Below are positions 41,317-49,592 of a DNA stretch of 64,000 nt, in pieces. The notes beneath the pieces were generated by a model, which searched no databases, was not told the DNA's origin, and saw only the letters and a list, made by a program, of their open reading frames with translations. This DNA comes from Micromonospora peucetia (GTDB lineage Bacteria > Actinomycetota > Actinomycetes > Mycobacteriales > Micromonosporaceae): the NCBI RefSeq assembly GCF_900091625.1, contig NZ_FMIC01000002.1, forward strand, positions 3,720,001 through 3,784,000, in the 5' to 3' direction. A program made the position numbers and the translations under genes. How positions within the stretch are numbered: position 1 is the first letter of the stretch; every line of letters begins with the position of its first letter.

Positions 41317-41743
41317 GCGACGGACGAGTCGACCGGGCGGTCGCGTCGGCGGGCTTTGGCCCGTCGCCGAGGAACGTCCGGACTCCACAGGGCAGGGTGG
41401 TTGCTAACGGCAACCCGGGGTGACCCGCGGGACAGTGCCACAGAAAACAGACCGCCGGCCCATCGGGGACGGTAAGGGTGAAACGGTGGGGTAAGAGCCC
41501 ACCAGCACCCCGGGTGACCGGGGTGGCTCGGTAAACCCCACCCGGAGCAAGGCCAAGAAAGGGCCGTCATCAGCATGATGACGACCCGCGCAGACGCTTG
41601 AGGGCTGCCCGCCCGATGTCTGCGGGTAGGCCGCTTGAGCCTGCCGGCAACGGCAGGCCTAGATGGATGGCCGCCACTGGCGCGAGCCTTTCGGGGCGCG
41701 CGCCGGTCACAGAATCCGGCGTACAGGTCGACTCGTCCGTCGC
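41317..41743 (+). ncRNA. rnpB: RNase P RNA (type A)
   Basis: The ends pair as the P1 helix: GCGACGGACGAGTCGACC (41317-41334) with GGTCGACTCGTCCGTCGC (41726-41743). Internally the universally conserved GAGGAACGTCCGGACTCC lies near 41370, and the ACAGAAA and GGTAAGGGTGAAACGGTGG segments follow at the expected places. At about 427 nt this is the long actinobacterial form. The RNA matures tRNA 5' ends. Its 3' end is duplicated twice downstream (44195 and 49523). Confidence 0.95.
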
Positions 41744-41780
41744 CCACCAGCTCAGAGCCGTGATCAAGGCCCTGAGCTGG
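41711..41780 (+). repeat. att-like repeat at rnpB 3' end (left copy, includes terminator)
   Basis: The last 33 nt of rnpB plus its terminator hairpin (CCAGCTCAG ... CTGAGCTGG, 41747-41780) recur at 49523-49592 with three mismatches in 70 bp; the first 49 bp are identical. A 22-bp core is also at 44195-44216. This fits an integration site in rnpB that is restored upon insertion. Confidence 0.85.
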
Positions 41781-42431
41781 TTCTATGTCCGGGCGTCGAT
41801 GGTCGTCGTTGGTCAACTTTGGCCGACGTTTGACGGCCTGGCGACGGCCTGACGGCCTGGCGACGGCCTGACGGCCTGGAGACGGCCTGATCTTGGACGG
41901 GCCTTCATCGCTTTGCATCTATCTACGTCGGGGTTGTGGTCGGTTTCTGGCTCGGCGGCGCGCCGCACTTGCCCCCGGGCTGCCATCCCGTCACCGTCGT
42001 CCCACACCTCGTGGAGCGGGCCTGCCCCGGGGTGACAAGGTGGAGCGCCCTGCCGGACGAACGACCTTGGCGCCCCGGGGCAGGTCTGCTCGGCTTGCCT
42101 GGGACGGCGGTGACGGGATGGCAGCCACCTCAACCACCGCGGACCGTGAGCCGCTGACGGTCCCCAGCCATCCCGGAGCCTGAGGCCCCCGCCGGAGGCG
42201 CTTTGACCTGGCTCGCCGGGAGCCTTGCCCTGTTCGGCCGGCGGCGGCCTCTGTGGCTCTCTCGTTGCTGCGCCGTGCGCCGGGGCGTGACCGGCCGCCA
42301 GGCCGCACGCGCGCCCCGGCGCGACACGGCGGCGGGCCGCAGGCCCGCCCTTGACCAAGTAAAGAAAGTCTGAACACACTACGCTCCGGCCAACGGCCAA
42401 GTCACTGGCGACCAGCTCATAAGATTGGTTC
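41781..42431. other. repeat-rich stretch at the island's left end
   Basis: No gene is supported. It holds three 19-bp tandem copies (GACGGCCTGGCGACGGCCT, 41832-41888), the long inverted repeat at 41979-42125, and a Gly/Arg-codon-rich, strongly GC-rich segment to 42360. Confidence 0.6.
41979..42125. repeat. 147-bp imperfect palindrome
   Basis: The 26-bp ends (41979-42004 and 42100-42125) are inverted with one mismatch, and the inner CCTGCCCCGGGG segments also pair. Part of the interior, reverse complemented, resembles 1285-1345 (GGGCGCTCCACC-TTGTCACC), so it is a diverged member of a family. It may be a non-autonomous element. Confidence 0.65.
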
Positions 42432-42713
42432 ATGCCGACCTACGGATGGATGGTCCTCGCGATCGCAACCGTCGTTGCGTTGGTCTCAATGGCGTGGCTC
42501 CGGCGCTCCCGGCGCGGCAGACCGCGTACCAAGGAACAGCAGCGCCAGGATGCGGTGCGGGCGGCGCGGTCAATACGCAGGAATTCACTCCGACCGAACC
42601 GGGACACCTTCGAGCGAGGCCACGGTGTGCCGGATCGGCACTCTCACGCCATCTTCGAGAACGGCGCCTTGGGTGACGGGGCCGGCGGTGGTGGTGGAGG
42701 CGGTGGGCACTAA
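42432..42713 (+). CDS. small single-pass membrane protein
   Basis: ATG 42432 gives 93 aa with one helix (WMVLAIATVVALVSMAWL, about 6-23), then a basic segment and a Gly-rich tail. I do not recognise a family. It lies at the left end of the island, convergent with the HAD gene. Confidence 0.55.
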   Translation: MPTYGWMVLAIATVVALVSMAWLRRSRRGRPRTKEQQRQDAVRAARSIRRNSLRPNRDTFERGHGVPDRHSHAIFENGALGDGAGGGGGGGGH

Positions 42714-42744
42714 CGAGGGCGAAAGGTTGCAGTCCTCCCCAGCC

Positions 42745-43440
42745 TTAGGAGTTCATCCGCGCGACCAACACGTCAGCGATCTCCCGCATGCTGGTGACCA
42801 CTACGTCGGCTCCGGCTTCCTGGAACTTCTCGACCTTGGCCGGGCGGTTCGCGTACCCGATCACTCGTGCCCCGGCTGCCCGCGCCCCGTCGATGTCCGA
42901 GAGGGAGTCGCCAATCAGTACGCACCGGGCCGGCGCTCCGCCTACTGCGTGTGCGGCTTGCCGGATCGGTTCCGGGTTGGGCTTCATCCGCTCCGGGGCG
43001 GCGTAGGCCCGGCCAACGATCGGCGAGACATGGACGGCAAGGCGGTGCGCTGCCAGGTAGGCGCTCACGGCACCGGCAGAGTTGTTGCTGACGACCGCCA
43101 CGGGGAGGCCGGCTTGCCGGGCAGCGACGACGACTTCCCGGCCGTATGGCGTCGGTTCGGCGGTCTCGACGGCCTGGCGCTCAGCCGCGCACAGTGCATC
43201 CTCTACCGCCTGCGTGACCTTCTGGTCGCCGGTGGCCCCGATGCGGCGTAGTACCTCAAGCGGGTCCGGTTCGCTGGCGAGATCCGGCGGGACTTCGATG
43301 CCGCGCCGGTGCAACACCTCGACCAGTTCCGCGGCGACCCTCGGCGCTGGATAGCCCGCGAAGACGCTGCACACCGGCCCGTCGAAGTCGAGCAGCACGG
43401 CACCGACTTCGTCGAACAGCCGGCCAAGGTCGGCGTTCAT
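42745..43440 (-). CDS. HAD-family hydrolase
   Basis: ATG 43440 overlaps the GntR stop (ATGA) and gives 231 aa. Motif I is LLDFDGPV (catalytic Asp), motif II VVSNNSAG, motif III Lys in RMKPNPEP, and motif IV VLIGDSLSDIDGA. A phosphatase is likely. GntR-HAD pairs are typical of actinomycete integrative elements (AICE), which fits the rnpB-anchored island. Confidence 0.85.
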   Translation of the reverse strand: MNADLGRLFDEVGAVLLDFDGPVCSVFAGYPAPRVAAELVEVLHRRGIEVPPDLASEPDPLEVLRRIGATGDQKVTQAVEDALCAAERQAVETAEPTPYGREVVVAARQAGLPVAVVSNNSAGAVSAYLAAHRLAVHVSPIVGRAYAAPERMKPNPEPIRQAAHAVGGAPARCVLIGDSLSDIDGARAAGARVIGYANRPAKVEKFQEAGADVVVTSMREIADVLVARMNS

Positions 43441-44194
43441 GCGTCGTACCGGTAGGCGATGGTCGACCACACCGAGTCGAACCACTGGCGTGACGCTTCC
43501 ACGAATTGCGTGCCGTGGGAGGCATCGTCGTCGGTTACCGCGTAGTGGAAGAGTGGCACATCCTTGCCCATCAGGTCATAGATCGCCATCGGTTCACCCT
43601 TGATCGACACGGTGCGCTCAACGACCGGATAGAAGCCGTAGAAGACTTCGTCGCCGTTGAGGATGTAGAGCTTGAACAGCGGGGATGCCCGGTGCATCCT
43701 CGACCGTGGTTGAGCGGATGAGCCCGAGGTCGCCCAGCTCGGTGACCTGGTCGATGATGCCGTCCGCTGCCCGGCGGGTGATCCGTTCCGCTCGCTCGCG
43801 TACGGCTGGATCGTCGGTCTGGGGCTCGGCTCGTGCGGGGAGTGCCATGGGGACGGTCATGTCGGAGATCAGGACGCGCACGGTGATCGTCTCTGGTGTG
43901 AGTCGCCCGACCCGGACCTTGTCGAGCGCCTCAGCGAGCGCGTCCCTCAGCGTCTCCCCGGAGAACCCGGCGAAGTCGATGCTGACGTGAGGTCGCTCGA
44001 ATGCGGCTTCGATGTGGGGGCGCAGCTCGACGGCCCGCTGTGTCTGAGCGCGGACGAAGGCGCCGCTTCCCTGCCGGGTAACGATCAGTCGTTCTGCCCG
44101 GAGCAGGTCCAAGGCTCGCTTGACGGTTTCCCGTGCGACGCCGTAGCGCGCTGCTAGGTCGGGCTGTGACGGCAGCTTGTCGCCGGGGGAGAGC
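43437..44194 (-). pseudogene. GntR-family regulator, 5'-truncated and frameshifted
   Basis: Reading leftwards from 44194, ELSPGDKLPSQPDLAARYGVAR then ETVKRALDLLRAERLIVTRQGSGAFV is a GntR DNA-binding domain, cut at its N-terminus exactly at the 22-bp att core (44195-44216). Near 43697 one extra base shifts the frame: STTVE leads to a nonsense tail in one frame while HRASPLFKLYILNGDEVFYGFYPV continues in the other, ending at TGA 43437. So one deletion of a base would restore the full C-terminal domain. The truncation probably reflects integration of a second element. Confidence 0.8.
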
Positions 44195-48968: not shown

Positions 48969-48991
48969 ATCGGGGCCGAGCCGCTCCCGTT

Positions 48992-49121
48992 GTCAGACGT
49001 TGAAGCGGAACTTAGACCGGCAGTTGCGGGACCTGCTGCAACTCGGCCGGTGCGCTGCCCGGGGCCCTCTCATGGTCCTCATCGCCTCGCGCCGGTTGAC
49101 GACGTTTCACGCTGTCTTGTG
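48992..49121 (+). repeat. 130-bp diverged direct repeat, copy 2
   Basis: Partner of 47595-47723. On the minus strand its first block encodes KFRFNV then a stop, which recalls the C-terminus of YchF-type GTPases; this link is speculative. Confidence 0.65.
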
Positions 49122-49164
49122 TTCCGACTGTCCCCCAGCAGCATCGCTCCGCCTGGGACAGGAC

Positions 49165-49464
49165 TCAATCGCTATTGCCTCCGCCTGGCCGTCGCCACTC
49201 CTCGCGCCACAGCTCGTGCCCCCGCATCAGCCAGCCGACCCAGAAGATTGCAAACAAGATCAGGAAGCATCCGAACAGCACGACGGCAAGCACTGCCGCG
49301 ATCGGCTGGAAACGCCCACCATCGCCGTTCCATCCGCTCGCCGCGACTGCTCCCAGGCCGAAGAAGATGATCATGAGCACGGTAATGACCGGCCGGTCAA
49401 TCGGGTGAGGCTCACGGGGCAGACGCAACTCCGACTCCTTCAATCTGACGCAAGAGACGTCCAC
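49165..49464 (-). CDS. small two-helix membrane protein
   Basis: GTG 49464 has GGAGG about 9 nt upstream and gives 99 aa. Two hydrophobic helices (about 27-45 and 53-78) are separated by a polar loop. I do not recognise a family. Confidence 0.6.
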   Translation of the reverse strand: MDVSCVRLKESELRLPREPHPIDRPVITVLMIIFFGLGAVAASGWNGDGGRFQPIAAVLAVVLFGCFLILFAIFWVGWLMRGHELWREEWRRPGGGNSD

Positions 49465-49522
49465 CCAAGGCCGCCTCCGATCGCCTGCATCCTGGCAGAC
49501 GACAGCCGAAGATCAGAGACCC

Positions 49523-49592
49523 AGAATCCGGCGTACAGGTCGACTCGTCCGTCGCCCACCAGCTCAGAGACCTGATCAAGGCTCTGAGCTGG
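49523..49592 (+). repeat. att-like repeat, right copy (rnpB 3' end plus terminator)
   Basis: This repeats 41711-41780 with three mismatches in 70 bp, and keeps the CCAGCTCAG / CTGAGCTGG hairpin. No RNase P body precedes it, so it is not a second rnpB gene. It marks the right edge of the island. Confidence 0.85.

Follow-up and report, generated by a model that had tools for sequence, protein, structure and literature searches.

Integration of mobile elements into RNA genes is known for tRNA and tmRNA genes. A 2020 NAR paper is said to have mapped integrative elements precisely. In database islands located within RNA genes, the island restores the 3' end of the gene and a displaced fragment marks the far end. 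The rnpB elements described here share both traits and differ in their target, the RNase P RNA gene, which by the title of the database lies outside its scope. The closest described systems are the pSAM2-type AICEs with a tyrosine integrase. As described in the available part of the AICE census, these resemble the rnpB elements in carrying an integrase, a Xis-like ORF, RepSA, an FtsK/TraB-type protein and a GntR regulator, and in inserting at the 3' end of a gene with its regeneration (PMC3218068). In that same part, the vast majority of tyrosine-integrase AICEs occupy tRNA genes, the pSLS subfamily excepted, and rnpB and RNase P are absent from the text (PMC3218068). In the literature searched, the coverage of which was partial, rnpB was nowhere described as a target of integration. 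In the portions available, rnpB is used as a promoter (PMC8776855), appears in phylogeny or in a cited reference (PMC2705793, PMC3541175, PMC2516327, PMC3610235), is not named as an integration site (PMC6582537, PMC3053259, PMC6601013) or is mentioned 0 times (PMC10936790). The mechanism is known, and the target rnpB is new within this partial literature.

The window analysed is a 64,000-nucleotide stretch of the Micromonospora peucetia genome (contig NZ_FMIC01000002.1, positions 3,720,001 to 3,784,000), and its features are listed in Table 1. The rnpB gene is the single match to RF00010 in an Rfam-model search of the whole genome. A sequence-only reading of the window had described a 70-bp repeat of the rnpB 3' end and terminator with three mismatches, and the same count was measured (41711-41780 and 49523-49592). 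Extended to 83 nt, the pair has 8 mismatches (90%), and the terminator of attL is seen again at 49560. The 22-bp core, also described as recurring between the two copies, is indeed present there. The 22-mer occurs at 41715, 44195 and 49527, always on the plus strand; in 100 shuffled sequences, with up to 3 mismatches allowed, the expectation was 0.00. The long hairpin that follows the arm repeats gave no Rfam family reaching the gathering score.

Table 1. Features of the rnpB locus and the adjoining island (window coordinates)
Feature	Position	Strand	Evidence
rnpB, RNase P RNA, target gene	41325..41739	+	RF00010, 291.5 bits
attL: core within the rnpB tail (41713-41739), then the terminator hairpin (41748-41779)	41710..41792	+	direct repeat of 49522-49604
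Right-arm repeats, six GACGGCCTG	41832..41890	+	position and spacing match intact elements
Long hairpin with conserved apex	42010..42095		also after attL in relatives
HAD-family hydrolase, AICE type	42745..43440	-	PF00702, 6.9e-15
GntR pseudogene, cut at core and frameshifted	43437..44202	-	65% identity to L059 GntR, residues 25-192
Middle 22-nt core, flanks on both sides unlike rnpB	44195..44216	+	22-mer match, flank comparison
Carboxylesterase gene without 5' part	44909..46029	+	PF00135; 89% to C2:5720769-5721889, same genome
Possible tyrosine integrase fragment, weak	46030..46260	+	30-36% over 59-63 aa, E 0.015-0.031
cis-Prenyltransferase gene, cargo	46758..47540	+	PF01255, 5.4e-71
Repeated IS-like DNA	47741..48486		up to 93-95%, several places in relatives
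Right copy of the rnpB tail with its terminator, not preceded by an integrase-side arm	49522..49604	+	direct repeat of 41710-41792

The same locus was surveyed in 120 other Micromonospora genomes, 112 of which provided at least 5 kb downstream of rnpB. The gene is a single full-length copy in 119 of the 121 genomes of the genus. A second copy of its tail lies within 19.5 kb downstream in 38/112 loci, always on the plus strand, and each of nine control 27-mers (eight other parts of rnpB and the minus strand) was found in 0/112. At least three arm repeats follow rnpB in 52/120 loci versus 2/2240 random windows. An integrase (at least 78% identity and at least 290 aa) is encoded in 23 genomes, and in 19 of these it shares a contig with rnpB and lies downstream of it. 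Counting against a general association, 60/120 loci have neither tail copy nor integrase and 7/120 have a tail copy without an integrase. Arm repeats are still seen in 15 of those 60 loci and the backbone gene, where found, is anywhere from 3.4 to 18.9 kb away, which means that an element is not recognisable by distance on its own. A family of 408-434 aa first counted with the integrases proved unrelated (epoxide-hydrolase-like by eye, joined by loose clustering) and was excluded from the count of tail copies and integrases. The single-copy sites proposed as a check were found in seven loci, which have one tail, 0 arm repeats, 0 integrase genes and a backbone RNB-family gene 3.4-6.0 kb away. 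A regenerated target, a displaced fragment and a single-copy site in relatives, the marks of a site-specific island, are all present.

Ordinary local duplications or IS-mediated rearrangements near rnpB, with no site-specific integration, could also produce repeated tails, and the window island does contain DNA resembling an IS, a stretch of gene sequence present twice and a further pair of repeats. This explanation is highly improbable, as only the 3' tail is duplicated and always in one orientation, the control segments are not, integrase genes in four loci end 73-90 nt before the next tail copy, and the layout is repeated in other genera. That elements integrate at the 3' end of rnpB, as first suggested from the window alone, is supported by the duplicated tails, the single-copy sites in relatives and the intact elements.

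Intact elements with the 22-mer in their attachment site, which the sequence-only reading had recommended searching for, were found in relatives. They are pSAM2-type AICEs with a tyrosine integrase, RepSA and an FtsK/TraB-type protein, which supports the AICE type assigned earlier. Their attachment site is composed of arm repeats, the rnpB tail and the terminator. Strains with an intact element include Micromonospora andamanensis NBRC 109075 and M. noduli GUI43. In one such locus (L064), the tyrosine integrase (PF00589, 1.2e-19) is adjoined by a tail copy, as in AICEs, and the other two AICE functions are represented by a RepSA replication initiator (PF20199, 2.1e-97) and a single FtsK/TraB-type DNA translocator (PF01580, 8.2e-9) that scores only 25 bits against NCBIfam TraB, with a cut-off of 800. 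Tandem elements at rnpB occur in other loci, and one genome (G168) has five integrase matches after rnpB, three of them full-length. A stop or broken frame is present in 4 of the 17 integrases classed as full. The rnpB integrase group is not monophyletic in the tree (3 changes). A tyrosine-recombinase motif search returned one irrelevant match; the integrases of this family show ALRHFYAS, which the motif does not allow. No excised circle was seen, the 25-mer being absent from viral_contigs.

Other integrases of the same genus, about 50-60% identical and with arm repeats of like kind, are found at the ends of protein genes. These elements differ from the rnpB elements in having short repeats (13-45 nt) at gene ends with the C-termini ...YFNAK, presumably of a metH-like gene, and ...QFTNYR. 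For two protein-gene integrases (L174 and L175), only arms were found. A tRNA-Tyr gene was considered as the target of the approximately 60% integrases and was rejected, as the direct repeat lies at the ...QFTNYR end and not in the tRNA.

In the most likely mechanism of the intact elements, the tyrosine integrase would bind arm repeats (GACG[GC]CC[TC]) on both sides of the core, which in the element would copy the terminal ~27 nt of rnpB. The integrase would recombine this core with the chromosomal rnpB tail near CGGCG/TACAGG. The incoming element would contribute a terminator, the tail of the transcript and the 3' strand of helix P1, leaving the ribozyme gene whole. The old tail would be pushed to the far end as attR, where the next element could insert. 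The catalytic step, the precise position of the cut, a functional rebuilt RNA and mobility at the present day are what we infer here.

Outside Micromonospora, 11 of the 12 genomes tested from six other genera of Micromonosporaceae have a tail copy, and so does a genome (G269) from a seventh. In these seven further genera the copy lies beyond or beside the integrase. Beyond the family, 33 genomes with an integrase homologue (E 1e-70) were covered, and in 0 of these do homologue and rnpB share a contig at a distance of up to 20 kb; in several the homologue is on another contig than rnpB, and one rnpB (G487) is only partial. In a Streptomyces plasmid of 18 kb with a 48% integrase, the 261 nt that follow the integrase gene contain no rnpB tail. 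A lineage of integrases that branches within the rnpB group is now located at a GNAT acetyltransferase gene, and the left end in one genome (G103) is a hybrid attL in which the site of this other gene is joined to the rnpB tail and terminator. The core at the GNAT gene is AAGTCGGCGAACAGG versus AATCCGGCGTACAGG at rnpB, which indicates that imperfect sites are usable. This change of target is apparent from sequence comparison, and so are the duplicated tails, the sites with a single copy, the layout of integrase and arms, the tandems and the spread over several genera.

Within this family, the window island (41713-49592) is very probably the decayed and likely immobile remnant of at least one AICE at the rnpB 3' end, where its intact relatives integrate. 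The left end of the island is a complete attL. No integrase of the rnpB-element family was found in the genome at E 1e-20, and with a right end that lacks the integrase-side arm this makes the island probably immobile. The integrase, Rep and Tra set of an AICE is incomplete in the island, which is classed as a remnant only; Rep and Tra were absent from the ten ORFs scanned with Pfam, eight of them inside the island. The island might instead be a silent, CIME-like element excisable by an integrase acting in trans, given that both outer cores are intact (27/27) and the right arm of attL is complete, but the incomplete right end and the lack of a family integrase in the genome make this unlikely. 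The flank after the left copy is like one right-arm type of relatives and the flank after the right copy like another, the latter over about 20 nt before it diverges, and at least two elements therefore likely contributed to the decayed island. Of the two successive integrations originally envisaged, repeated use of the site is retained, with at least two likely elements.

The HAD of the island is 49-53% identical to those of eight loci (L059, L088, L082, L039, L060, L050, L069 and L138), only some of which are rnpB elements. The AICE-type GntR-HAD pair noted earlier holds for the HAD and, by homology, for GntR, which is a pseudogene with a frame change near 43.7 kb and no Pfam match at 0.01 in the open part scanned. 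It is homologous to the L059 GntR from residue 25 onwards, starting within the core at 44195. This exact cut would fit a middle core that is not the terminus of an element of its own and arose from integrase action on a chance site in GntR or from a deletion between two elements, and the tolerance of imperfect sites seen at the GNAT gene favours the same. To the right of the middle core, where a fresh product would carry terminator or arm DNA, lies neither, and such an origin is a tentative possibility at somewhat under even chances. The integration account does not cover the middle core or the integrase relic.

The E values of the possible integrase fragment refer to a comparison set of 42 sequences including AICE-type integrases, and its similarity is to AICE-type integrases, not specifically to the rnpB family. 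The relic reported earlier is matched by this weak similarity; its ATG-started part has no Pfam match at 0.01, and it is a putative integrase fragment. Truncated genes were noted in the island, and the carboxylesterase gene is one. The segment surrounding the cis-prenyltransferase gene (46530-47738) is 91-94% identical to other loci in two genomes (G094 and G086). For the IS scraps suggested earlier, recurrence in relatives was observed; the resemblance to an IS is by eye only, with no Pfam match in the ORF scanned. The repeat pair 47595-47740 and 48992-49138 resembles a further att pair (end ...KFRFNV, minus strand).

The rnpB 3' end is probably a family-wide, so far unreported hotspot, with many chimeric RNase P RNAs in the Micromonosporaceae and a host range limited by P1. 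If so, the core and the P1 5' strand would be chromosomal, and the P1 3' strand, tail and terminator would come from the last element to arrive. P1 matching would limit host range, with genera that have a different extended P1 carrying elements with the matching 3' strand. The lineage that moved from rnpB to the GNAT acetyltransferase gene and keeps the old rnpB terminator would represent a target change in progress, an example of an integrase that switched target yet retains a fossil of the former one. As a third RNA gene, rnpB would test what makes a good target, namely a conserved 3' half-helix carried by the element. Environmental strains with elements would make element-driven regeneration of a ribozyme gene measurable, and in Micromonospora genetics the rnpB 3' end could serve as a locus for integration. 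The decayed island beside rnpB marks a spot of repeated insertion in Micromonospora and its relatives, at which each element would rebuild the end of the gene with its own copy.

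The sequence-only reading had seen the 3' end of rnpB, the RNase P RNA gene, repeated downstream of the gene in the window, and this was borne out: a 22-mer occurs at 41715, 44195 and 49527, with none expected in shuffles, and lies within an 83-nt direct repeat at the two outer sites. A profile search with RF00010 identified a single RNase P RNA in this genome. The left end of the decayed island that follows rnpB is a full attL (left element end) with six arm repeats. At the right copy of the rnpB tail (the last ~27 nt of the gene) the integrase-side arm is missing and the next ~20 nt are of another arm type, so at least two elements have probably used this site. 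The 22-nt copy in the middle of the island (44195-44216) cuts a GntR pseudogene at residue 25, and no integrase of the rnpB-element family was found in the genome at E 1e-20. The cargo is a patchwork of a copied carboxylesterase stretch, IS-like DNA and a cis-prenyltransferase segment with 91-94% identity to other loci in two relatives; segment 48487-49121 has an 88% copy 1.6 kb after rnpB in genome G053. A further pair of direct repeats within the island resembles an additional attachment-site pair and matched only itself when searched against its own genome.

For each of the other 120 genomes sampled in the genus, the rnpB locus was taken with up to 19.5 kb of downstream sequence. In 38 of these loci the 27-nt tail occurs again after rnpB, with no more than 4 mismatches. 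Nine controls (the minus-strand tail and eight further 27-mers from the rnpB of the genome in question) each gave 0 in the 112 loci that span 5 kb or more, where the tail gave 38. Among the 17 loci with both integrase and tail copy, four (L052, L058, L061, L084) have a stop or broken frame in the integrase. Tail copies lie past the fetched range in G110, G055 and also G013 (38 kb away); the integrase of G110 is 100% identical to that of Micromonospora noduli GUI43. Copies far from rnpB in G053 and G104 are perhaps rearranged or moved element ends.

Features and loci of the analysis (window coordinates unless a contig, C, is named)
Feature	Location or number	Detail
rnpB, RNase P RNA	41325-41739	RF00010 match
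83-nt direct repeat	41710-41792 / 49522-49604	90% identity
Second direct-repeat pair	47595-47740 / 48992-49138	end ...KFRFNV, minus strand
Long hairpin	42010-42095	about -62 to -70 kcal/mol, range for this and the similar hairpins of relatives
Similar hairpin	about 1270 (-)	-54 kcal/mol
Distant tail copy	G053 C1:1846305-1846400 (L170)	84%; 27-nt core perfect
Distant tail copy	G104 C4:3775635-3775710	88%
Integrase (>=330 aligned aa) + tail copy	17 of 120 loci	
Integrase remnant + tail copy	14 of 120 loci	
Tail copy only	7 of 120 loci	
Integrase remnant without tail copy	6 of 120 loci	
Integrase, tail copy out of range	1 of 120 loci	
Neither integrase nor tail copy	60 of 120 loci	
Contig end before 15 kb, nothing found	15 of 120 loci	
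Single-tail loci	L087, L136, L150, L152, L154, L157, L158	RNB gene 3.4-6.0 kb away
Integrase	L064 (G031)	PF00589
Small Xis-like ORF	L064, between Rep and integrase	by eye
RepSA	L064	PF20199, 2.1e-97
FtsK-type protein	L064	PF01580, 8.2e-9
GntR-UTRA regulator	L064	
Genus g11 genomes with abutting integrase	G243, G245, G257, G130, G269; L192, L194, L241	integrase 43-47%
Second RNase P RNA	L245, G120 C1:2822393-2825752	25 tRNAs in 3.4 kb
Second RNase P RNA	L246, G109 C1:914248-917612	17 tRNAs
Partial RNase P RNA copy	L247, G045 C4:1966204-1969374	91.9 bits, under cut-off; array of 20 tRNAs

The backbone beyond the variable stretch consists of what we take, by eye from the proteins, to be an RNB-family gene, npdG and panB. 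Seven loci carry one tail, no integrase and no arm repeat, with the RNB gene nearby. It was found in two of the 17 loci with integrase and tail copy, at 12.6 and 18.7 kb, and not within the fetched stretch of the others. The rnpB-to-RNB distance alone is no marker of an element, because it ranges from 3.4 to 18.9 kb in the 44 of 60 loci with neither integrase nor copy where the gene was found.

The gene set of the intact element in L064 is that of pSAM2-type AICEs (actinomycete integrative and conjugative elements). On the integrase side of the core, the integrase stop is followed by two arm repeats (GACG[GC]CC[TC]) and the rnpB tail; on the opposite side the tail is followed by the terminator, ~50 nt and at least four arm repeats. 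Three or more arm repeats stand after rnpB in 52 of 120 loci; among 2240 windows drawn at random from these loci, 2 had three or more. The end of the integrase alignment lies 73 nt before the next tail copy in L061, L064 and L082, 90 nt in L076 and 0.4-1.9 kb in the other 13 loci. Long hairpins like those of the window also occur in L076, L082, L085, L106 and G168 (L179, L180), with a conserved apex, AAGGTGGAGCGCC...GACGNACGACCTT, and stem letters that vary on both sides. No Rfam family matched at gathering score, with only hairpin-like matches far below the cut-off; the hairpin may be an AICE origin or transfer site.

Of 121 genomes, 23 hold an integrase homologue with an identity of 78% or more over 290 aa or more. 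In 19 it follows rnpB on one contig, in G042 and G078 it may do so but contig ends intervene, and in G018 and G103 it is elsewhere. Homologues of 50-60% in the genus lie at other sites, beside short direct repeats that fall at the ends of protein genes, ...YFNAK (presumably metH) and ...QFTNYR. In L159-L161 (G093, G061, G039), each with a ~60% integrase, a tRNA-Tyr gene is found 12-14 kb upstream of it and points away; it was rejected as the target there, as the att repeat sits in a nearby protein gene instead. A tree was built from 42 integrases, among them 16 of the 19 long ones found at rnpB in Micromonospora. Full branch support separates each of the ...YFNAK and ...QFTNYR groups from the rest; L174 and L175, with arm repeats only, had their site labelled from tree neighbours. 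One origin of the rnpB group (n=22) is not established by the tree, since three changes are needed. Transfer between genera is suggested by two integrases of another genus (G176, G234), which branch within the Micromonospora rnpB group.

The G018 and G103 integrases are nested within the rnpB group (branches 100/99 and 98/92; innermost branches weaker, 91/81 and 87/70), and their element occupies the 3' end of a GNAT acetyltransferase gene (PF13527, 2.4e-28), which we take to be Eis-like. The attL of G103 reads GATCAGAAGTCGGCG, then TACAGGTCGACTCGTCCGTCGCC, then an rnpB-type terminator, and its attR (right end), on a different contig, reads GATCAAAAGTCGGCGAACAGG and continues into the GNAT gene. 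Both ends are on one contig in G018, where the attL keeps the terminator and arm repeats and the rnpB tail has decayed. These ends place the predicted cut near CGGCG/NACAGG and show that the rnpB tail moves along within the attachment site.

The tail is the 3' strand of helix P1 of RNase P RNA, and leader and tail lengthen this helix. With twelve tail nucleotides invariant in all 120 loci, the genus offers no covariation. Between genera, different letters maintain the pairing, for instance GCGATGAGCGAGTCGGC with GCCGACTCGCTCATCGC in G184, and elements would have to match the P1 of their host.

Of 300 family genomes surveyed, 40 that belong to other genera carry a homologue at E 1e-70, and rnpB was located in 36. 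In 14 of these the integrase follows rnpB and shares its strand and contig; in five it is distant on the same contig, and in 12 it is on another contig. The remaining five, all of genus g11, have it directly against the 3' end of rnpB in opposite orientation, a layout that puts the element's integrase at the attL side. A tail copy lies beyond the integrase in 11 of 12 tested (genera g6, g12, g29, g32, g34, g44) and was not found within 3.1 kb in G320. Within g11, the 27-nt tail recurs exactly in G269, at 14.4 kb from rnpB, and does not recur in 10.6 kb of G245. Five integrase matches, three full length, follow rnpB in a row in G168, with tail copies after all four checked. Outside the family, 0 of 33 genomes with a homologue at E 1e-70 have it within 20 kb of rnpB on one contig; in several it is on another contig.

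The elements and their mechanism are known, and a change of target is visible here. The rnpB target was not found in print, within the partial coverage of the literature searched; the words rnpB and RNase P are absent from the text of a 2011 AICE census (PMC3218068).

Two RNase P RNA matches at E 1e-20 occur in 7 of 354 family genomes. The second RNase P RNAs of G120 and G109, about 360 nt long (267 and 254 bits), are flanked by tRNA-Ile(gat) and tRNA-Arg(acg) within densely packed tRNA arrays; in G045 a similar array holds a partial copy at the corresponding position. A tRNA cassette that carries its own processing ribozyme, as in G120 and G109, merits separate study.
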